Positions 1 to 11,639 of a DNA stretch of 64,000 nt are shown here, piece after piece. How positions within the stretch are numbered: position 1 is the first letter of the stretch; each line of letters begins with the position of its first letter. The notes under the pieces were generated by a model that was not told where the DNA came from, searched no databases, and was given only the letters and a program-made list of their open reading frames with translations. The translations under genes and the position numbers were made by a program. This DNA is from Sphaerisporangium corydalis (lineage in GTDB: Bacteria > Actinomycetota > Actinomycetes > Streptosporangiales > Streptosporangiaceae): NCBI RefSeq assembly GCF_025506355.1, contig NZ_JANZYP010000014.1:62001-126000 (forward strand), given 5' to 3'.

Positions 1-563
1 GGCTGTGGCTGGACATGTGCGCCGGTCCGGGCGGCAAGGCGGGCCTGCTCGACTCGCTCGCCGTCCAGGACGACCGCCACCTCCTGGCCGCCGACCAGCG
101 GTTCCACCGCGCCCGGCTGGTCTGGCGGGCGACCCGGCGCGCCGGGGTCATCACGGCGGACGGCACCGAGCCCGCCTGGCGCCCCTCGGTGTTCGACCGG
201 GTCCTGGTGGACGCCCCCTGCACGGGTCTCGGCGCCCTGCGCCGCCGCCCCGAGGCGCGGTGGCGGCGTTCCCCGGAGAGCGTGCCCGAGTTGGCCGCGC
301 TCCAGCGCCGCCTGCTCGGCTCCGCGCTGGACGCCACCCGCCCCGGCGGGGTGGTCGCCTACGTCACCTGCTCGCCGCACCTGGCCGAGACCCAGGCGGT
401 GGTGGGGGACGTGGTGAAGCGCAGGAGCGACGCCGAGGTCCTGATCGCTCCCGACTACCTGGAGGAGGTCGACCACCTCGGCGACGGCCCGTACGCCCAG
501 TTCTGGCCACACCTCCACAACACCGACGCCATGTTCCTAGCCCTCCTCCGCAAAACCCCCTGA
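1..563 (+). CDS. rsmB: 16S rRNA (cytosine-C5) methyltransferase RsmB, C-terminal part (5' end outside window)
   Basis: This is the catalytic C-terminal half of a Fmu/RsmB-type RNA m5C methyltransferase, which uses SAM to methylate C967 of 16S rRNA. The reading frame is open from the first bases. Visible motifs are the SAM-binding DMCAGPGGKA near the start, DAPCTG (motif IV, residues about 68-73 of the visible part) and TCSPH (motif VI) with the catalytic cysteine pair. The protein ends with the usual short tail after VDHLGDGPYAQFWPH. The N-terminal NusB-like domain expected for RsmB must lie upstream. In Mycobacterium this gene directly precedes rpe; here rpe is about 6 kb away. A bidirectional-looking terminator follows at 610-637. 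RsmB rather than another m5C methyltransferase is inferred from motif spacing and from rpe and the rib genes lying downstream. Confidence 0.9.
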   Translation, partial: LWLDMCAGPGGKAGLLDSLAVQDDRHLLAADQRFHRARLVWRATRRAGVITADGTEPAWRPSVFDRVLVDAPCTGLGALRRRPEARWRRSPESVPELAALQRRLLGSALDATRPGGVVAYVTCSPHLAETQAVVGDVVKRRSDAEVLIAPDYLEEVDHLGDGPYAQFWPHLHNTDAMFLALLRKTP

Positions 564-609
564 CCCCCCACCGCCTCACGCAGGGGAAGCGGCATTCCCG
601 CCTACCGCC

Positions 610-637
610 GAAAAGGTGCCTTCGGCGCAGTCCTTTT
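610..637. terminator. Hairpin terminator with flanking A and T runs
   Basis: The arms AAAAGG and CCTTTT enclose a GCC-TTC-GGC inner hairpin, with a T run on the plus side and an A run on the other. It could terminate rsmB on the plus strand and also stop leftward transcription of the minus-strand remnant at 900-1295. A degraded copy lacking the outer arms occurs at 813-835. Confidence 0.55.
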
Positions 638-965
638 TGGCGACCCTCCGCCTCCCACTGGCGGTTCGTCCCGCAGGCGGGCCGCCGGTGCCTGTCTCAG
701 AGGCTCGTGGCAGTGAGACGCCCGCCGTTCGATGACGTCGAGTCGGAGATGACCTTGTTCAGCCCGCCGGCTCCGGCTCCCGATCGCGCGATGCCTCTGA
801 CCTGCCGATATTGAAAAGGTGCCTTCGGCGCAGTCTTCTATGAGCGACCCTCCGCTTCCCACTGGCGACCATCCCGCAGGCGGGCCGCCGGTGGCTGTTC
901 TAGATGCTTGTGGTGGTCAGGCGCCGTTGAATGGCGTCGAGCCGAAGGATGACCTCGTCCAGCTT
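610..965. repeat. Imperfect direct duplication, two units of about 150 bp (610-760 and 813-965)
   Basis: Both units hold, in the same order, GAAAAGGTGCCTTCGGCGCAGTC, GCGACCCTCCGC, CCCACTGGCG, CCCGCAGGCGGGCCGCCGGTG and then a diverged stretch that on the minus strand encodes the last 20 or so codons of the ORF at 900-1295. Unit offset is 203 bp. Each unit contains an inverted repeat (CACTGGCGG against CCGCCGGTG, with CCCGC/GCGGG inside). The best reading is a partial tandem duplication of the 3' end and terminator of a small minus-strand gene, followed by decay of the outer copy. Confidence 0.75.
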
Positions 966-1295
966 GGGGGAGTCGGTAGTGGTCATGGACTGCCGGGCCT
1001 GGATGAAGCCAGCTGTCACTGAGACGATGGCGCGGCATAGTCCAGCGGTGCTGTACGTCGGGCGGTGGCAGACCGCTTCACGCCAGGCGGTGAAGACCGC
1101 CCGCACATTGCGTGAGATGGGGCCATGAACGGAACGGGAGAGGTGGAAGGCTCCGGCTGGGAAGTGGGGGTTCACGGGTCGGGGGTTCAGGCTGGGTTCG
1201 GCGGGTTCAGTGAGGTGGAACTTTGACGCGCTGGTGTTCCGGCGGCGCGGTGGAAGCCCCAGTGAGTCGCCCCTGCGTTCGCTATCGCCAGGCAC
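900..1295 (-). CDS. Unrecognised small protein, possibly a remnant
   Basis: The ORF would give up to 131 residues, but the N-terminal third looks like noise and no clear ribosome binding site marks a start. The part from about residue 60 on looks protein-like: RNVRAVFTAWREAVC, then STAGLCRAIVSVTAGF, then a helical tail LDEVILRLDAIQRRL. I do not recognise the family. Its last codons and 3' hairpin are duplicated at 610-760, where the frame is locally disturbed by compensating indels, which argues that this was once a functional gene. It lies in the accessory stretch between rsmB and the ATPase/PIN cassette. It may be an intact small gene or a decaying one. Confidence 0.35.
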   Translation of the reverse strand: MPGDSERRGDSLGLPPRRRNTSASKFHLTEPAEPSLNPRPVNPHFPAGAFHLSRSVHGPISRNVRAVFTAWREAVCHRPTYSTAGLCRAIVSVTAGFIQARQSMTTTDSPKLDEVILRLDAIQRRLTTTSI

Positions 1296-1766
1296 GGCCG
1301 CCCGGATGGTGGTACGTAACGCTCAACTCAGGGATCTGTGCCAAGCAGAGACTGATCGTCAACTGACTCACGGCTCATCCGTGCTTATTTACTCGGTGAT
1401 GTGTCGCTTAGTGTGATTTCATACGGGTTGCGAGATAGGTCAGAAGGGTGGGGACTTGAAGTAAGTAGACGTTCGGCAGACTGTCGATCCAGGCTTTCGG
1501 TCAAACTCACGAAAGATGGAACATGGGGGAGTGACCCTTCGCCATCCCTTACCTCAACGTCGAGCTGACGACACGGGCCCCATCGCTGCCAGCTCTCGCG
1601 TGCGGGGATCCCAACCCCGGCGCCGCGATGCGGCCCGCCCTCGGCGCCGGCGAATCGATGGTGTAGGTCGGTTCAATCCGCACAAGGTTTGCACGTGGAC
1701 CAGCTGACGTCGGCGCATGACCTCTACTAGGGTTAAGTCACGCAGAAAGCGATCCGTAGGAAAAAG
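1296..1766. other. Non-coding or decayed stretch upstream of the ATPase gene
   Basis: No convincing gene is visible. Around 1535-1665 one frame reads PFAIPYLNVELTTRAP and continues to GAGESMV before a stop, but it has no start codon and may be a gene fragment. Base composition becomes AT-richer toward 1720. A TACTAG hexamer at about 1724-1729 could be a -10 element for the gene at 1767. Confidence 0.4.
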
Positions 1767-3161
1767 ATGATAACGAAGCTGAGACTTCAGAATTTCAAAG
1801 CTTGGGAAGATAGCGGACCGGTCGAATTTGGGCCGATCACCGCATTCTTTGGTAGCAACTCATCCGGTAAGACTAGCTTTCTTCAGAGCCTGCTACTCCT
1901 GAAGCAAACAGCGGAGTCGTCCGACCGGGGGCGCGTATTTGACTTGGGGGGCCCTGCATCACTGGTCAGCCTCGGGACGTTCAGTGATATTATATTCAGT
2001 CATGAATTCGATCGAACGGTCGGCATTGATCTGTCCTGGCAAGAGGACAAACCGTTTGAGATAGCAAACACAGAAACCAAAAAGCGTGAGGTAATAGCCT
2101 CAAGTCGGGATTTGCGACTCTCCGCCGAAGTGCGGGCAATGCGCGCCACACCGGTGGTTCAGCAGGTCGGCTACGGCATGGGTGACCTTTGGTTCGCCCT
2201 GACCCGCCAGCGGGGATCTAAAGATGAGTACAGCCTGGATGCGGACGGATTCACTTTTAGGCGTGTTATAGGGCGGCCATGGCCCTTGCCTCCTCCAGGA
2301 AAATTCTACAGCTTTCCTGATCAAGCTCGCGCGTACTATCAGAATGCGGCATTTCTTTCCGATCTCGAGCTTCAGTTCGAAAAGCTTTGTAGTCGGATCT
2401 TCTATCTAGGGCCACTTCGACAAGATCCCGAGAGGCAGTACATCTGGTCGGGAGGGAGGCCGGTCGATGTTGGCCAACGAGGTGAGCTTGCGATTGAGGC
2501 ACTGATCGCCTCGCAATCCGATACCAAGAGAAATGCTCGGGGATTCGCTATCAGAAAGGACGGGAAGAGGCGGACGAAACTTTACTCCGTGGAAGAGCAT
2601 GTGGCCATGTGGCTTAAAGACCTGGGGCTGATTCACTCCTTCAGGGTAGAAGCGGTCGATGACCGAAAGACCCTATATCGAGTTCAAGTCCAGAGGTCAG
2701 AAGCCAGCACATCGGTGCTGCTGACAGATGTCGGATTCGGGGTCAGCCAGGTGCTTCCCGTACTGGTCCTGCTGGCGTATGCACCCGAGGGTTCAACGGT
2801 TTTGCTAGAGCAGCCGGAAATTCACCTGCACCCTGCCGTACAAACAGGGCTCGCTGATGTGATCATCGAAGCGGCGAAGGTGCGAAATATTCAGGTTGTA
2901 CTGGAGAGCCATTCCGAGCATCTCTTGATGCGACTTCAAAGGAGAATCGCAGAAAGAAGTGTCGGCCAGGGCATCGTGCTGGAACCGGAGGACTGTCGAC
3001 TGTATTTCTGCGAGGCGCAAGAGAAAGCATCGTCAATCAGCCGTCTTGATATGGATCTCTTCGGTAACATCACGAACTGGCCTGACGATTTTTTCGGAAA
3101 TAGTTTTCAAGAGGCTGCGGCAATGAATATTGCTGCACGCAAGCGAGCAATCCGAGAGTAA
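1767..3161 (+). CDS. AAA15/OLD-like ABC-type ATPase with DUF3696-like C-terminus
   Basis: The 464-residue protein has the SMC/RecF-like ATPase layout of the AAA15 class. It opens with a KLRLQNFKAW strand and Walker A GSNSSGKTS (residues 29-37). An ABC signature-like DVGFGVSQVLP follows at about 321-331, then Walker B VLLEQPEIHLHP (about 345-356) and an H-loop ESHSEHLL (about 379-386). The end, with DLFGNITNWPDDFF, fits the DUF3696 tail. Such ATPases are known as sensor/motor subunits in several anti-phage systems, usually with a nuclease partner. The start has AGGAAAAAG upstream. The stop is 5 bases before a PIN-like gene, so the two are probably one operon. Codon use is clearly more AT-rich than in the flanking chromosome (many AAA, ATT, GAA codons), suggesting recent transfer. 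The family call is confident; a defence role is inference. Confidence 0.85.
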   Translation: MITKLRLQNFKAWEDSGPVEFGPITAFFGSNSSGKTSFLQSLLLLKQTAESSDRGRVFDLGGPASLVSLGTFSDIIFSHEFDRTVGIDLSWQEDKPFEIANTETKKREVIASSRDLRLSAEVRAMRATPVVQQVGYGMGDLWFALTRQRGSKDEYSLDADGFTFRRVIGRPWPLPPPGKFYSFPDQARAYYQNAAFLSDLELQFEKLCSRIFYLGPLRQDPERQYIWSGGRPVDVGQRGELAIEALIASQSDTKRNARGFAIRKDGKRRTKLYSVEEHVAMWLKDLGLIHSFRVEAVDDRKTLYRVQVQRSEASTSVLLTDVGFGVSQVLPVLVLLAYAPEGSTVLLEQPEIHLHPAVQTGLADVIIEAAKVRNIQVVLESHSEHLLMRLQRRIAERSVGQGIVLEPEDCRLYFCEAQEKASSISRLDMDLFGNITNWPDDFFGNSFQEAAAMNIAARKRAIRE

Positions 3162-3166
3162 TCAGA

Positions 3167-3655
3167 GTGAACTATCCTGCGCGCGCGGTCGTGGACTCAA
3201 ATGTCCTGATCGTTGCGAATGGCAAATCGAGTCATTCATCAACTGAGTGTGTTATAGCTGCGACGGAGTTCCTTTCGTACGGCGAGAAGAATGCAGTTAT
3301 TGTCCTCGACTCCTCCTGGCTCATTTTCGATGAGTACCGAAAATACTGTTCTTTCAGAGGGCAACCGGGAGCGGGAGATCGATTCTTCCTTCACTTGCAC
3401 CAAACACAGGCCGATCCCCGAAGGGTTCAAAAAGTGGAGATCCATCAAAAAGAAGACGGCTCTTTCGCGGAGGTGCCGGATATGCTGTCTGGTTTCGACC
3501 GATCCGACCACAAATTCGTTGCCACCGTCATCGCTGATCGGCGGCAGTCTGTAATCGTGAACAGCTCTGATTCTGATTGGCGCGAGGCGGCTGAGAAATT
3601 AGCTAAATGTGAAATCGAAGTTATTGAATTATGTCCAAACTTAAGACGTAGATAG
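3167..3655 (+). CDS. PIN-like nuclease partner of the DUF3696-type ATPase
   Basis: The 162-residue protein fits a PIN-domain RNase/DNase fold. AVVDSNVLIVANG gives the first acidic site (D10, with N12). IFDEYRKY contributes E56, FDRSDHKFVA gives D111/D114, and NSSDSDW gives D135/D137. These match the spacing of the metal-binding tetrad. The GTG start at 3167 lies 5 bases after the ATPase stop. It shares the AT-rich codon use of the ATPase, so both genes probably arrived together. PIN domains usually act as toxins or RNA-cleaving effectors; here an ATPase-gated effector is plausible. No cognate antitoxin-like small gene is seen. The substrate is unknown. The alternative is a PIN-like fold without activity, but the acidic residues argue against that. 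Confidence 0.7.
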   Translation: MNYPARAVVDSNVLIVANGKSSHSSTECVIAATEFLSYGEKNAVIVLDSSWLIFDEYRKYCSFRGQPGAGDRFFLHLHQTQADPRRVQKVEIHQKEDGSFAEVPDMLSGFDRSDHKFVATVIADRRQSVIVNSSDSDWREAAEKLAKCEIEVIELCPNLRRR

Positions 3656-3744
3656 ATGGAAAGACAGTGCAACGTCGGCATGCCGGAGGAGCCAGCGGAG
3701 TGGTGCCCAGAGCAACTGTGGAGGCTTGTTTCGAGGGGGGTGCC

Positions 3745-4050
3745 GTGTGGGTGCGTAACTCGAATGATCCGCCGTTGCTGGGGTCGGTGATCGAGGCTTC
3801 GGTGGAGGGGTGGCTCAGGTTTCTGGCGGAGGTGCGGGCGGGGGAGTTGGCGCTGGGCAGGCTGGGGGTGCGGCGTTCGTACGGTGGTGGTCTTGTCGTT
3901 GGTTTCGACGGGATTCGCGTCACTGTGGCGCTCGATACGGGCTCTGGGGTCGTCGCGTATACGAGGGCGGAGTGGCAGGTGTTCGTGGACGGGGTGGCTC
4001 GCGATGGTGAGTTCACCCTGGAATGGCTTCTGGCCGAGCCCGTCACTTGA
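3745..4050 (+). CDS. DUF397-like small protein with two half-repeats
   Basis: I place the start at GTG 3745, four bases after GAGGGGGG; the frame stays open back to GTG 3667, which would give 127 residues instead of 101. The sequence begins MWVRNSNDPP and reads ASVEGWLRFLAEVRAGEL, close to the C-terminal half of DUF397 (RDSKDP followed by WxxFLxxVRxGEF). A second similar block, YTRAEWQVFVDGVARDGEF, follows about 45 residues later, so the protein looks like two DUF397-type halves. DUF397 proteins are abundant in actinomycetes, often next to XRE-family regulators, and some act as partners of those regulators; no XRE gene is seen here. The 3' end overlaps the convergent ligase gene by 8 bases. 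Base composition is back to chromosomal GC-rich. Confidence 0.55.
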   Translation: MWVRNSNDPPLLGSVIEASVEGWLRFLAEVRAGELALGRLGVRRSYGGGLVVGFDGIRVTVALDTGSGVVAYTRAEWQVFVDGVARDGEFTLEWLLAEPVT

Positions 4051-5629
4051 CGTCGGGCGGGAACGGGCCGGGAGGCAGGGGGACGATTGTGCGGTGTTTG
4101 CCGCCGGGGGAGCGTTGTGGGGGTTCTTCCGCGCGTTCGAGGGTGACGCCGGGGAGGCCGTGGGTGGTGAGCAGGCGTGTGAGGTCGGTTCGGACCGTCT
4201 GCCAGACGTGGTCAGGGGTGGCGTCGGCCGCGAGCGTCAGGCGTACGCGGAGGGTCGACGGGGTGGTTTGGAGTAGCTGGAACTGTTCGATTCCGGGGAT
4301 GCGGTCGAGGAGGGTGGCGAACTGGAGGGGGGCGAGGACGGTGGGGTCGCCGGAGGCGGTGGGGAAGGCGAGCAGGTCGGCGGCGCGGCCCTGGACCCGG
4401 ATCGCGGGCAGCGGGTCGCCGCACGGGCAGGGGTCGGGCCGGGTCAGGACGCCGTCGCCGAGGTCGTAGCGCAGGATCGGTTGCACGCGGTTGGCGAGGT
4501 TGGTCAGCAGGACGGTGTGCGAGGGCTCGCCCGGCGGGACGGGGCGGTGGTCGGCGTCGACCGGCTCGGCGATGACCCAGTCGCCGTTGACGTGGTACCA
4601 CCCGTGCGCGCAGCCGTCGCCGATGAAGGTGCACTCGGTGGCGCCGTAAGCGGTGCGGACCTTGGCGCCGTAAGCGGTGCGGACCTTGGCGCCGGATGGG
4701 GTGTGGACCTTGGCGCCGAACGGGGTGCGGACCATAGCGTCGTAAGAGGAGCGGAGCTTGCCGTCGTACGGGGTGCGGAGCTTGCCGTCGTACGGGGAGT
4801 GGAGGTTGGCGTCGTGTGGGGTGCGGACCACGGCGTCGTGCGGGGTGTGGAGGTTGGGGCTGAAGGCCGTGCTGATCTGGGTGCGGTCGTTTTCGGTCAG
4901 GGTTTCGCCGCCCGGGTCCACCAGTACGGGGTCGATGCGCAGCCGGCCGGCCGTCTGCTCGGTGGCCAGTAGCGCGATCATGCTGCCGTAGCCGAGGAGG
5001 ATCGCCGGGCGGAACCGGTTGAGCTCGGCGACCAGCTCCGGCAGGGGCATGTGCACCGAGAAGATCCTCACCGCTCGGCCGACCGGGCCGAGGCGGGTGG
5101 CGCCGGCGCGCCCCATGGAGTGGCCGCCGGTCACGACCACCTCGGCGATCCGCCCGCCACGGGCGAGGACCCTGGCGACGCCGTCGGCGCCGAGCCAGGA
5201 GAGTCTCATCCGGAAGGCGAGGACGAGGCTCACGGCGACCGCCCGGTCGTCCATCACGAAGATCCCCGGGCTTCCGGTGGTGCCCGAGGTGGTGGCCACC
5301 AGGTACCTCCCGAGGAAGCGCTCGCCGGCCAGCGCGGGGTTCGCGACGAACGCCCGGGCCTTCGCCAGCGTCACCTCGCGGTCGGTGACCCAGTCGTCGA
5401 ACCGGGGCATCAGCGCACTCTTGCCGGTGACCGGCAGCATGGCGGGGTCCTCGACGCGATCGGGCAGGTGCCGGTAGAGCTCGCGGTAGTAGGGCGAGCG
5501 GGCCCGCGCGTACGCCACGAGCTCGGCCAGGCGGGCGCGCCGCCGCCGCGCCATCGCCTCCGGGCCCCCGCTTCTGGCCCGGCGGATGTCGCGCCACAGC
5601 CCAAGGACACTCTCGCCCATGATCCCCAC
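4043..5629 (-). CDS. Phenylacetate-CoA ligase/CapK-like acyl-adenylate-forming enzyme
   Basis: The 528-residue protein belongs to the PaaK/CapK branch of the adenylate-forming superfamily, which activates a carboxylate with ATP as an acyl-adenylate. The start region reads LAELVAYARARSPYYRELY, typical of this branch. The phosphate-binding motif TTSGTTGSPG lies at about 112-121, YGATECT is the A5-type catalytic motif, and RYDLGDGV lies further on. Immediately before YGATE the protein carries nine 8-residue tandem repeats (consensus VRTPYGAK) encoded by 24-bp units at 4641-4856, absent from usual family members; without them it would be a normal 450 or so residues. The gene diverges from a TetR regulator at 5739, which probably controls it. 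The substrate cannot be read from the sequence. Confidence 0.8.
   Translation of the reverse strand: MGIMGESVLGLWRDIRRARSGGPEAMARRRRARLAELVAYARARSPYYRELYRHLPDRVEDPAMLPVTGKSALMPRFDDWVTDREVTLAKARAFVANPALAGERFLGRYLVATTSGTTGSPGIFVMDDRAVAVSLVLAFRMRLSWLGADGVARVLARGGRIAEVVVTGGHSMGRAGATRLGPVGRAVRIFSVHMPLPELVAELNRFRPAILLGYGSMIALLATEQTAGRLRIDPVLVDPGGETLTENDRTQISTAFSPNLHTPHDAVVRTPHDANLHSPYDGKLRTPYDGKLRSSYDAMVRTPFGAKVHTPSGAKVRTAYGAKVRTAYGATECTFIGDGCAHGWYHVNGDWVIAEPVDADHRPVPPGEPSHTVLLTNLANRVQPILRYDLGDGVLTRPDPCPCGDPLPAIRVQGRAADLLAFPTASGDPTVLAPLQFATLLDRIPGIEQFQLLQTTPSTLRVRLTLAADATPDHVWQTVRTDLTRLLTTHGLPGVTLERAEEPPQRSPGGKHRTIVPLPPGPFPPDVK
4641..4856. repeat. 24-bp in-frame tandem repeat, nine units, within the ligase gene
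   Basis: Units run 4641-4664, 4665-4688 and so on to 4833-4856. The first two are identical and the others diverge by a few bases, so expansion looks recent at the 4641 end. On the coding strand each unit gives eight residues of the form (V/L)(R/H)(T/S)(P/A)(Y/F/H)(G/D)(A/G)(K/N). The parent unit appears to be the conserved motif VRTAYGA that precedes TEC. Confidence 0.95.
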
Positions 5630-5676
5630 GCCCTCTCAGGTCTCCCGACGGCATCCCACCGCCTCTCCGCATTAGA

Positions 5677-5708
5677 CAGCACTGAGTGCAAAATCGCAAA
5701 GAGTGCTG
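5677..5708. promoter_or_regulatory. Inverted repeat, probable TetR operator in a divergent intergenic region
   Basis: CAGCACT at 5677-5683 and its exact complement AGTGCTG at 5702-5708 flank an 18-base centre; a second small palindrome GCACTGAGTGC overlaps the left arm. The site lies between the divergently transcribed ligase (start 5629) and TetR gene (start 5739), the classic place for autoregulation by a TetR repressor. Confidence 0.6.
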
Positions 5709-5738
5709 ATATGCCTGCGGTGCAGTAGGATGACGCGC

Positions 5739-6569
5739 ATGGTGGACGAGCCGGGGTTCCGGGAGCGCAAGAAGCAGCGCACGAAACGGGCGCTGGTCGA
5801 GGCGGCCCTGCGGCTCTTCGACGAGCAGGGGTACGAGGAGACCACCCTCGACCAGATCGCCGCCGCCGCCGACATCTCCCGGCGGACCTTCTTCAGCTAC
5901 TTCCCGGCCAAGGAGGACGTGCTCTTCCTCGGCATGGAGGAACGGGTGGAGGGGGTGCTGCGGGGCATCGCCGGGCGCCGGCCCGAGGAGGCGATGGTCG
6001 ACGTCCTGGTGCGCGCGGCCGAGGAGGTGGCCGGGCACGCCTGGGGCGACGACCTGGCCGGGGCCCTGGAACCGGTCGAGCTGCGGCTGCTCCTGACGGT
6101 TCCGGCCCTGCAGGCGCGGGCCCTGTACCGGCTGTCGCTGGCCGAGGCGCGCATCGCCGAGGCGCTGCGGGCCGCCTTTCCCGGCGAGCTGGACCCGATC
6201 ACCGCCGTCGCCGTCGTCGGCGCGGTCGTACGGGCCGGGACCGCGGCGGCGATGGCCGCGCTGCGGAACGGCGAGCCTGGTGACCAGGTGCGGGCCGCGA
6301 CGCGCCGCGCCGTACGGATCGTCGGCCAGGGCCTGCGGCACACCCTCGGACCCCGGCCGGAGGACCGCTCGGCCCAAGTCCCCTCGGAGGACCGCTCGGC
6401 CCGAGGCCCCTCGGAGGGGCGCCCAGTCCGAGGCCCCTCCGAGGACCGTTCAGCCCGAGACCCCTCGGAGTGGCGCTCAGCCGAGGACGGCTCGACCGAG
6501 GACGGCTCGGTCGAGGGCGCGCTCGGCGTGCGGACAGAGGCCGATGCCGACCAGGGCGGGAGGTTCTAG
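5739..6569 (+). CDS. TetR family transcriptional regulator with a repeat-expanded C-terminal tail
   Basis: The N-terminal helix-turn-helix is clear: [20 protein letters not shown], then [31 protein letters not shown] (about residues 7-60). The ligand-binding domain runs to about residue 205. Starts at 5730 or 5739 are both possible; 5739 leaves AGGATG at a better distance. After the normal TetR end the protein continues for some 70 residues with imperfect 9-residue repeats (SEDRSARGP type) encoded by 27-bp units. It is transcribed divergently from the acyl-adenylate ligase, with an inverted repeat between them, so local repression of both genes is likely. The gene ends 11 bases before rpe. 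The stop region TTCTAGACT also supplies a TAGACT -10-like hexamer eight bases before the rpe start. Confidence 0.85.
6358..6515. repeat. 27-bp imperfect in-frame tandem repeat in the TetR gene
   Basis: At least four 27-bp units begin at about 6358, 6384, 6411 and 6438, followed by shortened derivatives (GAGGACGGCTCG twice). They encode acidic/basic nonapeptides SEDRSA(R/Q)xP. Units differ by up to six bases, so the array is older than the one in the adjacent ligase gene. Confidence 0.85.
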
Positions 6570-6580
6570 ACTGCGGGCTC

Positions 6581-7243
6581 ATGGCCGTACAGATCTCACC
6601 CAGCATCCTCACCGCCGACTTCGCGCGGCTGGCCGACGTGGCCGCCAAGGTCGCGGACGTGGCCGACTGGCTGCACGTCGACGTGATGGACAACCATTTC
6701 GTGCCGAACCTGACGATCGGCCTCCCGGTGGTCGAGTCGCTGCTCAAGGCGACGGGCCTGCCGCTCGACTGCCACCTGATGATCGAGGACCCCGACCGGT
6801 TCGCCCCCGCGTACGCCGAGGCGGGGGCGGGCAGTGTGACGATCCACGCCGAGGCCGCCAAGGCCCCCGTGCGCACCCTGCGGCAGATCAGGTCCGCCGG
6901 GGCCAGGGCCGGGTTCGCGCTCAACCCCGGCACGGCCGTCCAGGACTACGAGGGCCTGCTCGGCGAGATCGACATGCTGCTGGTGATGACCGTCGAACCG
7001 GGTTTCGGCGGGCAGCCGTTCCTGGACATCATGCTCCCGAAGATCCGCCAGGCACGCGAGCTGATCGGCAAGCACGGCGGCGAGATCTGGCTCCAGGTGG
7101 ACGGTGGCGTGTCGGCCACGACCATCGAGCGCTGCGCCGAGGCGGGCGCCGACGTGTTCGTGGCCGGCAACGCGGTGTACGGGTCGCAGGACCCGGCGCA
7201 GGCCGTGCGTGCCCTCCGCGCCCAGGCCGAGAACGCCTCCTGA
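6581..7243 (+). CDS. rpe: Ribulose-phosphate 3-epimerase
   Basis: The 220-residue TIM-barrel enzyme interconverts ribulose 5-phosphate and xylulose 5-phosphate in the pentose phosphate pathway. Diagnostic stretches are [31 protein letters not shown] with the metal-binding His/Asp residues, DCHLMIEDP, the phosphate-binding [12 protein letters not shown], and QVDGGV near the C-terminus. The start at ATG 6581 gives the usual length. There is no clear ribosome binding site, and a TAGACT hexamer ends eight bases upstream, so a leaderless transcript is likely. The gene is normally directly behind rsmB in actinobacteria, with riboflavin genes nearby; both neighbours are present here but separated by inserted genes. 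Confidence 0.97.
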
Positions 7244-7389
7244 GCGGTCCCCGGGAGGGGCCGGGGCGAGCGGGTCAGCGCCCGGATGCGGGCGTGCTCG
7301 CCTTGCGGGCGGCAAGCCCCGGCGTCCGACGTCGGGCGGCCTTCGCCGTTCGGGCCGCACGCCGCTCATCCGGATCAGGCGCGTTTGCG

Positions 7390-7431
7390 CTGATGGTGAA
7401 CGGGGTTGAGCTGACGGTGAAAGGGATTGAG
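7390..7431. repeat. Two 21-bp direct repeats upstream of the epimerase/reductase gene
   Basis: CTGATGGTGAACGGGGTTGAG is followed immediately by a copy with three mismatches. On the minus strand this reads as TTCACC and CTCAAC half-units alternating every 10-11 bases, resembling a PHO-box-like array. It may be a regulator site for the gene at 7463 or a chance duplication. Confidence 0.45.
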
Positions 7432-7462
7432 CGGGCGAGCGGCGTGGTGGTTCAGTGGCCGG

Positions 7463-8473
7463 ATGGAGATCTTGGTGCTGGGCGGCACGGCGTGGGCCGG
7501 CCGGGAAGTGGCGAGGCAGGCGCTGGCCCGGGGACACCGGGTGACGTGTCTGGCCCGGGGTGAGAGCGGGGAGGTCGCCGACGGCGCCGTCCTGGTCGCC
7601 GCCGACCGCAGCGACCCCACGGCGTACGCGCCGTTGCTCGACCGTGAGTGGGACGCGGTCGTCGAGGTCTCCTGGCAGCCGGGGTTCGTGCGCGGCGCCC
7701 TCGCGGCGCTGGCGGACCGTACGGCGCACTGGACCTACGTCTCCTCGGTCAGCGTCTACGCCTCGCACGCCACGCAGGGGGCGGACGAGTCCGCCGAGAT
7801 CCTCGGGCCGATCGCCTCGAGCGAGGCCGGCCGCGAGGAGTACGGCGAGGCGAAGTCCGCGTGCGAGCAGGCTTCGGCGGACGCGCTCGGCGACCGCCTG
7901 CTGATCGCCCGCGCCGGTCTCATCGGCGGCCCCGGCGACCACAGCGGCCGTACCGGATACTGGGTCGCCAGGTCGGCGCGCGACCCGCTCGGGCCGATGC
8001 TGGTCCCCGACTCGCCGGGCGCCGCGACGCAGGCCGTCGACGTCCGCGACCTCGTCGCCTGGACGCTCGACGCCGCCGAGAAGGGCACCACCGGGACCTA
8101 CGACGTCGTCGGGCCGGTCGTCCCGTTCACGGAGTGGGTCGAGCTCTCCCGCACGATCGGCGGGCACGAGGGGCCGGTCGTCGGCGCCGATGCCGCCTGG
8201 CTGCTTGAGCAGGGCGTGAACGAGTTCATGGGGCCGGAGTCGCTGGCGATGTGGCTGGTCGAGCCGGGCTGGGAGGGCTTCACGACGCGCTCCGGCGCGG
8301 CGGCGGTGGCCGCGGGCCTGAGTCACCGCCCGCGAGCCGAGCTGCTCGCCGACACGCTGGCATGGGAACGCGAACAAGGCCTGGACCGCGAGAGGCGTGC
8401 CGGCCTCAGCGCCGGGCGCGAGCGCGAACTGCTCAGGGCACTGGGGGTCACGCCCCCGGATCCGCAGGCGTGA
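7463..8473 (+). CDS. NAD-dependent epimerase/dehydratase family protein (atypical SDR reductase)
   Basis: The 336-residue protein has a Rossmann-fold N-terminus, [33 protein letters not shown], with a GGTxxxG dinucleotide motif (residues 7-12). VSSVSVYA (about 92-99) is the SDR serine region, and [10 protein letters not shown] (about 129-138) supplies the Tyr/Lys pair. The C-terminal part holds [11 protein letters not shown] and a substrate-binding region typical of the plant-like CSP41/isoflavone-reductase-like SDRs. I chose ATG 7463, which begins the conserved strand, over GTG 7427. The gene stands alone between rpe and the convergent dpp operon. Substrate unknown. Confidence 0.85.
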
Positions 8474-8516
8474 TCGGGGGCCGGCCCAGGCCGCCGGTCC
8501 AGGAGGGGGCGGGCGG

Positions 8517-9553
8517 TCAGGCGAGGGCCGGGTCCAGGACGATCTCCTGGTCGCCGTGGACGGTGGGCTCCTCGGGGAAGTGGCAGGCGGTGAGGTGGCC
8601 CTCGTGGTTGCCGGTGATCTGGATCAGCGGCGGCTCCTCGGCCGCGCACTTGTCCTGGGCCTTCCAGCACCGCGTGCGGAACCGGCAGCCGGACGGCGGG
8701 TCGATCGGCGAGGGCACGTCCCCGGCCAGCCGGATGCGCTCGGTCCCCACCCCGTCCTCGGGCAGCTCCACCTCGGGCACGGCCGACAGCAGCGCGTGGG
8801 TGTACGGGTGGCGCGGCCGCTCGTAGATCGACTGCCGGTCGCCCACCTCGACGATCTTGCCGAGGTACATGACGGCGACCCGCTGGGAGACGTGGCGCAC
8901 CACCGCGAGGTCGTGCGCGATGAACAGGAACGCGATCCCGAGGTCCCGCTGGAGCTGCTGCAGGAGGTTGACCACCTGGGCCTGGATGGACACGTCGAGC
9001 GCGGACACCGGCTCGTCGGCCACGATGAGCTTGGGCTCCAGGGCGAGCGCCCGCGCGACGCCGATGCGCTGCCGCTGGCCGCCGGAGAACTCGTGGGGGA
9101 ACCGGTTGTAGTGCTCGGGGTTGAGCCCGACGGTCTCCAGCAGTTCACGGACGCGCTTCTGCCGCCCGCCGGGGGGCTGGATCCCGTTGACCTCCATCGG
9201 GCCGCTGATGATCGTGCCCACGGTGTGCCGGGGGTTCAGCGACGAGTACGGGTCCTGGAAGATCATCTGGATCTCGGACCTGATCGGCTTGAGCTCGCGC
9301 CGGCTCGCGTGGCTGATGTCCTGGCCGTTGTACCGGATCGTGCCGCCGCTGGGTTCCAGCAGCCGGGCGACCAGGCGGCCGGTGGTGGACTTGCCGCACC
9401 CGGACTCGCCCACGAGGCCGAGTGCCTCGCCCGCGCCGACGGTCAGGTCGACGCCGTCCACGGCGTGCACGCGCCCGACCTGGCGCTTGAAGACCAGCCC
9501 GCCCATGACGGGGAAGTACTTGGTCAGGCCGGACAGCTCCAGCAGGCTCTCGG

Positions 9554-9557
<4 letters not shown>
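8517..9557 (-). CDS. dppF: Peptide ABC transporter ATP-binding protein, DppF/OppF type
   Basis: This 346-residue ATPase is the second nucleotide-binding subunit of a peptide importer. It shows Walker [10 protein letters not shown] (about residues 54-62), Q-loop [12 protein letters not shown], signature SGGQRQRIG, Walker [13 protein letters not shown] and H-loop IAHDLAVV. The C-terminal oligopeptide/dipeptide extension contains CRFRTRC and a later cysteine, [14 protein letters not shown], that may bind an Fe-S cluster or metal, as seen in DppD/DppF proteins. The GTG start at 9557 overlaps the dppD stop by four bases (GTGA), so the genes are translationally coupled. It is the last gene of the dppC-A-B-D-F operon. 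Confidence 0.95.
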
Positions 9558-10618
<1,061 letters not shown>

Positions 10619-10658
10619 TCGCTGCTCCTTGAGGTCGTACGGTGTGCGCGCATGCCCC

Positions 10659-11639
10659 TCACGCCAGCCTGACGCGCGGGTCGATGAAGGCGTACAGGAC
10701 GTCCACCACGATGTTCAGCACGACGATCGAGAAGGCCCCGACCAGGGTGACACCGAGGAGCATCGGCAGGTCGGTGTTCTGCACCGCCCGCACCGCCAGC
10801 TCGCCGATGCCGTGCAAGGTGAACGTCTGCTCGGTGATGATGGCGCCGCCGAACAGGGTGGCGAGGTCCACGCCGAAGATGGTGACGATCGGGATCATCG
10901 CCCCCCGCCAGGCGAACCGCAGGAAGACCGTGCGGCTGGACATGCCCTTGGCGCGGGCCGTGCGGACGTAGTCCTCGGCGAGCTGTTCCACCATGACCGA
11001 GCGGGTCATGCGGGTGTAGTTCGCGGTGAAGATGATGGACAGCACCACCCACGGGATCAGCAGGTGGACGAACCACCCGAGCGGATCCTCGGTGAAGGGG
11101 ATGTAGGAGGGCCGGGGGAGCAGGCCCATGCTGTCCACGACGAAGAAGACCACGATCGGCCCGACGAAGTAGATCTGCAGCGACGCGCCGATCACCGAGG
11201 TCGTGCTCGCGATCTTGTCGAGCGGCCTGCCCTGCTGCCAGGCCGCGATCATGCCGGTGATGATGCCGAAGCTCAGGAACACCACCGCCGCGCCCATGGT
11301 CACCGAGATGGTGACCGGGAACCGGTCGATGATGGCCGAGAAGACCGACTCCTGGGTGGCGAAGGAGTACCCGAGGCACGGGGCGTCGCACTGGCCGAAC
11401 TGGACCAGGTCGCGCCCGGTGAAGATGCCGACCAGCCAGTGCCAGTACTGCACGAACAGCGGCTCGTCCATGCCGAGGTTGTGCCGGATGAGGATGAGGT
11501 TCTGCGGCGGGCAGATCTTCCCGCAGAAGGCCCGGGCGGGGTCACGGGGGATCGCGTAGAACAGGAAGAACGTGACGGCACTGATGATCAGCAGGATCAC
11601 GGCGGCGCCGATGACTCGACGGACGAAAAACCGGAACAT
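10659..11639 (-). CDS. dppB: Peptide ABC transporter permease, DppB type
   Basis: The 326-residue membrane protein starts MFRFFVRRVIGAAVILLIISAVTFFLF, the usual first helix of DppB/OppB permeases. It has a large extracellular loop carrying two Cys pairs (CGKIC and CDAPC, about residues 39-92), which is unusual in length. Five further helices follow. The EAA loop that contacts the ATPase reads DYVRTARAKGMSSRTVFLRFA (about 217-237). It lies after the solute-binding protein gene and a strong hairpin at 11686-11717, and upstream of dppD. Confidence 0.93.
   Translation of the reverse strand: MFRFFVRRVIGAAVILLIISAVTFFLFYAIPRDPARAFCGKICPPQNLILIRHNLGMDEPLFVQYWHWLVGIFTGRDLVQFGQCDAPCLGYSFATQESVFSAIIDRFPVTISVTMGAAVVFLSFGIITGMIAAWQQGRPLDKIASTTSVIGASLQIYFVGPIVVFFVVDSMGLLPRPSYIPFTEDPLGWFVHLLIPWVVLSIIFTANYTRMTRSVMVEQLAEDYVRTARAKGMSSRTVFLRFAWRGAMIPIVTIFGVDLATLFGGAIITEQTFTLHGIGELAVRAVQNTDLPMLLGVTLVGAFSIVVLNIVVDVLYAFIDPRVRLA

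Follow-up and report, generated by a model that had tools for sequence, protein, structure and literature searches.

Related systems and identity of the pair

Several defence systems pair an ATPase with a second protein: PARIS consists of the AriA ATPase and the AriB effector (DUF4435/Toprim), and the partner is the GajB helicase in Gabija and the PtuB HNH protein in Septu. A comparable pair of genes, encoding an ATPase and a small protein, is present in Sphaerisporangium corydalis, in the 64,000-nucleotide stretch analysed here (contig NZ_JANZYP010000014.1, positions 62,001 to 126,000; hereafter the window). As judged from the protein sequences, the pair belongs to HEC-03, a candidate system of PADLOC: the same two genes stand side by side, on the same strand and 5 bases apart, and both products match their models over nearly the full length, the ATPase HEC-03B with E = 6.9e-154 (residues 1-463 on 1-454 of 458) and the 162-residue protein HEC-03A with E = 8.6e-40 (residues 7-158 on 3-153 of 159). 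This compact cassette had been recognized in the original prediction, with which the coordinates and strand of the open reading frames agree; there it was taken for a new or poorly described type without a name, an idea that by its own terms would fall if the pair matched a described system. This is the case, and, as both proteins match HEC-03 models, an unnamed new system is ruled out. In our judgement it is fairly likely that the module, acquired horizontally, acts in phage defence as a PIN RNase gated by the ATPase.

The name HEC stands for "Hma-embedded candidate" and is traced to a preprint by Payne et al. (2024) in the available parts of PMC12988326 and PMC11411939, the former also stating antiviral activity for several HECs, HEC-06 among them. 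HEC-03 itself is named once in the available part of PMC13356809, in a list for rumen genomes; no other use of the name was found, though a lone mention could escape such searches. Among the best literature matches, HEC-03A, HEC-03B and PDC-M55 were not mentioned, and the term Hma-embedded occurred only in PMC12988326. Literature searches for DUF3696 with PIN returned nothing, and those for DUF3696 with phage returned one unrelated paper.

The ATPase and the PIN-fold protein

The ATPase has three Pfam matches above the cut-off: AAA_15 (E = 2.5e-24), AAA_21 (1.2e-20) and, at the C-terminus, DUF3696 (1.6e-9). After HEC-03B, the next PADLOC models are far weaker (NsnB, 1.6e-64; PDC-M55A, 6.2e-56), and weaker still are AriA (1.8e-26) and the best GajA model (1.9e-10). 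In an alignment of 62 sequences, window included, the residues of Walker A (G29, N31, S32, S33, G34, K35), the signature (G323, G325, S327, Q328), the Walker B region (E348, Q349, P350, E351) and the switch (E380, S381, H382) are invariant or nearly so. The complete motifs of the original prediction are thus present, with the Walker A lysine at K35 and not at K34; its label "OLD-like" is only partly right, because no Toprim match was found in the ATPase with Pfam at E up to 1, the C-terminus being DUF3696.

An OLD nuclease was consequently rejected for lack of the C-terminal Toprim. PARIS is similar in joining an AAA_15 ATPase to a small effector gene, but the effector here has a PIN fold, shows no DUF4435 in Pfam and matches no PADLOC model other than HEC-03A, and the HEC-03B model fits the ATPase far better than AriA; an AriB-type DUF4435/Toprim effector is absent. 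Gabija and Septu were also set aside, the partner being neither GajB nor PtuB and the GajA match being weak.

Regarding the small protein, nothing was found above the Pfam cut-off (DUF6506 at 0.096). Its AlphaFold model is confident (predicted local distance difference test 94.1, predicted template modelling score 0.90), and the best structural matches are VapC21, VapC15 and other VapC/PIN structures, the VapC rows having a sequence identity of 7 to 16%. Among 86 PIN sequences D10, N12, D48 and E56 are invariant and D111, D114 and D135 nearly so; in a larger set D10 and E56 are kept in 89/89, and D114 and D135 each in 88/89. Because the model is PIN/VapC-like and the acidic residues are kept, the assignment to PIN stands, as the original prediction had proposed from the acidic residues, and the protein is probably a nuclease.

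Besides RNA, the substrate could be DNA, the PIN-fold protein cutting that of the phage in the manner of Septu or Gabija. An OLD-family nuclease (6p74) and PtuA of a retron are among the relatives of the ATPase in the PDB, and some PIN-like proteins are DNases, both points counting for such a DNA-targeting pair; nevertheless, VapC-type RNases are the best structural matches, and an ATP-dependent RNA ligase recurs as third gene in relatives and indicates RNA, making this alternative decidedly unlikely.

Distribution and mobility

A scan of 84,980 species genomes gave 369 relatives of the PIN gene, of which the best 80, by likeness to the window, were studied as loci. These span many phyla, and in 80/80 the PIN gene is immediately preceded, in the same orientation, by an ATPase relative, in some cases a fragment, so the adjacency that the original prediction proposed to check is confirmed. 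By rough start calls, the spacing is within -25 to +20 bases in 76/80 loci, with a 4-base overlap in 42/80. At one locus of Nonomuraea wenchangensis (L011, 7757-8474) an open PIN gene stands behind an ATPase cut to an 80-residue frame, apparently decayed.

HEC-03A was found in 2/396 drawn genomes of the window's phylum and in 2/198 drawn relatives, the window being one of the two in each case, and, with the centres left out, in 14/397 drawn Pseudomonadota and 3/293 drawn Planctomycetota. The ATPase accompanies the PIN gene in all 17 of the latter hits, and four of the 14 in Pseudomonadota (L128 to L131) make up a remote sister lineage, with E values between 1e-15 and 1e-22. The distances of ATPase and PIN protein are correlated (r = 0.81, 97 rows), and phyla are intermixed on the ATPase trees. 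The window groups with copies of Nonomuraea and Sinosporangium, with an ATPase identity of 78-81%, and the four cassettes of this group that were measured are all richer in AT than their flanks; in addition, the ATPases of Sinosporangium album and of another genome of the same family, Streptosporangiaceae (G409), are identical. In the window, the guanine-cytosine (GC) content is 0.533 for the ATPase gene and 0.495 for the PIN gene, against 0.715 overall, bearing out the AT-richness already noted from the letters; compared in cassette-length stretches at 50-base steps, the cassette is the lowest-GC 1.9 kb, the minimum starting at 1751.

PIN homologues are present on 12 plasmid records. No match was found in phage records with the PIN protein, nor in a wider scan of viral contigs; a scan with ligase-type PINs gave one contig (L136, below). 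Another viral-contig match (L005), 31% over query residues 14-67 and with no ATPase-like frame by eye, was judged to be chance. The patchy spread, the variable site between rsmB and rpe (below) and the defence-rich neighbours support the pair being a horizontally mobile two-gene defence module, as far as genome comparison can tell.

Two other readings bear on this distribution. In the first, the pair would be a toxin-antitoxin addiction module, a VapC-like PIN toxin with the ATPase as neutralizer, maintained for the stability of mobile elements. The closest folds, the plasmid copies and the partner that is constant in every locus all weigh in favour of such a module, and VapC toxins are PIN RNases alike in fold. 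However, HEC-03A has low identity to them and an ATPase as partner: no VapB-type antitoxin lies beside the PIN gene, which has the ATPase upstream and DUF397 next, and no small VapB-like protein is seen, the partner being a 464-residue ATPase with intact motifs that is encoded first. The defence genes in the neighbourhoods and the RNA ligase gene of many relatives also argue against it, and an addiction module is thus regarded as unlikely. In the second, the genes would serve housekeeping RNA processing or stress instead of immunity, for which the ligase association and the broad spread over phyla may be quoted; on the other side stand the patchy presence (one other in 395 in the phylum draw, one other in 197 relatives), the position in the lowest-GC segment at a variable site, and the copies carried by plasmids and by one phage-like contig, leaving this reading highly improbable.

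Defence genes near the pair

The flanks have two recurrent families of large proteins, present in 11/80 and 8/80 loci. We take them to be HmaB (DUF1156 methylase) and HmaC (DUF499), because the PADLOC matches of the sampled genes close to the pair included HmaA, HmaB, HmaC, DUF1156_MTase and DUF499. On an Acinetobacter plasmid, the pair is preceded by genes for a helicase-related protein and an N-6 methylase. The copy of the window lies outside any Hma locus, with no Hma genes beside it, its flanks being rsmB, DUF397, an AMP-binding-like gene and genes that are presumably TetR-like and rpe. Hma is the context of discovery and not a defining feature, and it seems that embedding is not required of each HEC-03 copy, since the methylase family is present in only 11 of the 80 homologous loci.

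Neighbours were compared with PADLOC at E up to 1e-15 in 70 loci, after 10 near-duplicates were dropped. Genes within 2.5 kb (113/280 sampled) matched 110 families, compared to 14 for genes more than 4.5 kb away (113/174 sampled). Some points weaken this comparison as evidence for defence: the near genes are longer, approximately 407 residues against 306, the count is of families and not of genes, and some hits, such as DndA/SspA, may be housekeeping cysteine desulfurases. A defence-rich neighbourhood, as annotated by these models, is support for a defence role and not proof; together with the patchy spread and the variable site, it gives good support to the original proposal of a candidate defence system.

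An RNA ligase as third gene in relatives

A gene annotated as RNA ligase follows the PIN gene on plasmids of Aeromonas, Azotobacter, Tistrella and Rhodococcus (6/12 PIN-bearing plasmid records examined); on the Acinetobacter plasmid an HNH gene takes its place. Three ligases were tested and match Pfam RNA_ligase with E of 2.2e-33 to 9.1e-31, and the same three, as a difference from the HEC-03 described in PADLOC, match no model there but for one chance-level Cas11 hit. Motif I, EEKxDG, and further positions are invariant in 25 sequences. The ligase was found in 8/80 genome loci, a set chosen for likeness to the window; when approximately 1.5 kb of flank was searched in the drawn genomes, it followed the PIN gene in 10/14 Pseudomonadota hits and 1/3 Planctomycetota hits. 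Ligase and PIN gene abut or overlap (-11 to +5 bases) except in Rhodococcus, in which 71 bases separate the annotated genes. It lies at 8530-9213 in Halomonas (L050), 8532-9230 in Aeromonas (L007) and 4809-5501 in L136, and further ligase-bearing loci are L118-L121, L123-L125, L128, L129, L131 and L134.

On the 97-row ATPase tree, the 67-row clade of the window has no ligase, and 24/30 rows outside have one; some of these came from ligase-type queries, and among the evenly drawn rows outside the clade the figure is 11/14. The ligase label changes 6 times on the tree, against a mean of 21.7 after shuffling (0/500 as low), this being a quick tree from which L006, with its long branch, and L133, which bears a stop, were excluded. 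A midpoint root places the ligase early, the rooting being uncertain. The ligases of Aeromonas and L131 are 58% identical, compared to 31% for the ATPases and 27% for the PIN proteins, and over the same 24 rows the ATPase distances correlate with those of the ligase at r = 0.74 and with those of the PIN protein at r = 0.95. Because the former ligases are alike while their partners are divergent, and because the ligase tracks the ATPase less closely than the PIN protein does, the gene appears to have moved between lineages of the system.

L136 is an IMG/VR contig, in which 2.7 kb separate the three-gene operon from genes for portal and terminase (8236-10799; PHROGs families); in our reading it resembles the cargo of a P2-like prophage. 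The genome of the window has no relative of this ligase, and RNA_ligase gave no Pfam match over the cut-off there and two weak ones below it. In this search, which covered eight genomes, the three others whose locus lacks the ligase (L025, L013, L082) were likewise without one at any other place, and the ligase-bearing L050, L065, L089 and L090 have one each. The three-gene locus of Halomonas gave no DNA match in distant mode against E. coli genomes. Ligase relatives occur on 19 plasmid records, nine of them also PIN-bearing and the other ten at 27-32% identity; a strict link with HEC-03 is countered by the three of these ten that were examined, none of which has an annotated DUF3696 gene beside the ligase. 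On a plasmid of Aeromonas caviae (NZ_AP022111.1, H17) the match covers 71% of the ligase query in two places with no annotated gene, suggesting a broken ligase gene.

Residue 137 of the PIN protein, an aspartate in the window and two residues from D135, is lysine in 13/13 ligase loci within the set of 89 sequences; the other 76 have D (68), K (5), H (1) or a gap (2). It was rejected as a strict marker of the ligase, as the distant ligase loci L128, L129 and L131, added later, have D and L122 has K without a ligase.

Proposed mode of action

The protein identity, the fold, the active-site residues, the pairing, the patchy spread across phyla and the defence-rich neighbours form the computed basis of the gated RNase proposed above; from them we infer the gating, the trigger, the RNA target and the abortive outcome. 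HEC-03B, an ABC-type ATPase, would keep HEC-03A inactive or position it, and may sense a product of phage infection; ATP binding or hydrolysis would then turn on the PIN RNase, which would cleave an essential RNA and halt growth and phage replication. The usual targets of PIN toxins are tRNA or rRNA. The ligase, where present, could limit or reverse the RNA damage, and the two-gene form of the window would be the gated RNase alone.

Cleavage by PIN RNases yields 5'-phosphate and 3'-OH ends, exactly the kind that Rnl2-type ligases seal. Since the ends left by the one are the substrates of the other, a PIN cut would be resealable without end-healing enzymes by the ligases linked to HEC-03, which we take to be Rnl2-like. 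It is conceivable, with a probability somewhat short of even, that HEC-03 is at root a three-gene system that breaks and reseals RNA, formed by the ATPase switch, the PIN RNase and the ATP-dependent RNA ligase, in which the arrest could be undone or would be limited to infected cells; the clade of the window would have kept the ATPase and the nuclease only, the ligase being an exchangeable antidote module.

To our knowledge, the repair enzymes in RNA-cutting defences come from the phage. In this respect HEC-03 differs from the anticodon nucleases PrrC and RloC, which are countered by tRNA repair of the phage: many relatives of the pair encode the ligase in their own operon, and, by the chemistry above, no end-healing would be needed. 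Both sorts of system combine an ABC-type ATPase with an RNase (in part from PMC2610378, available text), and an RNA ligase counters the cut there and would do so in HEC-03. PIN-domain defence with required catalytic residues is likewise described for DS-3 and DS-5 of DefensePredictor, but DS-3 is a single protein and DS-5 pairs with a DUF5830 protein, compared to the DUF3696 ATPase that accompanies HEC-03A; DUF3696 is not mentioned in the available main text of this work (PMC13092281). By title and start of abstract, none of the literature matches listed describes a trio of ATPase, PIN and RNA ligase, its absence from print not being established thereby.

HEC-03 is known but little studied, and a bare PADLOC entry here becomes a concrete proposal of mechanism. 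The ligase is the part most worth following: with many relatives having their own, RNA damage and its repair could both come from a single immune operon, and a cognate ligase encoded there would allow a direct test of whether the arrest can be reversed.

Probable insertion site and neighbouring genes

The cassette is bracketed by rsmB (3-563, partial) and rpe (6581-7243), 6.0 kb apart. rsmB is near rpe in 9/10 congeners (the tenth, L115, showed rpe only), at an interval of 0.75 to 9.9 kb that never contains the pair, and HEC-03A occurs in 0/10 same-genus genomes. The interval is shorter, 0.75-1.9 kb, in 5/9, in accordance with the earlier remark that the pair sits where rsmB and rpe are split. 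Its content differs among congeners (L107-L114, L116), though some share genes. This range of lengths among nine congeners suggests an insertion hotspot. The edges of the acquired segment (Table 1) were assigned with one congener, G397 (locus L114), to which block 1200-1270 is 78% identical.

Table 1. Coordinates of the cassette and adjoining features in the window.
Feature	Position	Strand	Length and basis
HEC-03B, AAA_15/AAA_21 ABC-type ATPase with C-terminal DUF3696	1767..3161	+	464 residues, ATG start; PADLOC, Pfam, motifs in 62-row alignment
HEC-03A, PIN-fold protein, probable nuclease (predicted)	3167..3655	+	162 residues, GTG start; PADLOC, AlphaFold, VapC/PIN structural matches, kept acidic residues
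Leader, probable left edge of acquired segment	1271..1766		GC 0.587; match to G397 (L114) ends at 1270
Probable right edge of acquired segment	3656..3695		DNA similarity to L114 back at 3696, inside the DUF397 gene
DUF397 gene, probably resident neighbour, outside the system	3667..4050	+	DUF397, E = 4.4e-6

The DUF397 gene was considered as a third component and rejected, because L114 has a 55%-identical relative at the same place, directly upstream of rpe and behind an HTH_31/DUF5753 gene, without the pair. No HTH_31/DUF5753 gene was seen alongside DUF397 in the window, where the HEC-03 pair occupies that place. A consensus scan found no sigma-70-like promoter, terminator-like sites were not above shuffled-sequence counts, and no tRNA was found within positions 1-10000. 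After rsmB, at 610-925, there are two imperfect copies of a block of approximately 113 bases with a spacing of 203. Finally, the AMP-binding-like gene on the minus strand (4043-5629) contains an in-frame degenerate repeat (VRTPHDA.../LRTPYDGK...) in the middle of the protein, at approximately 4640-4880.
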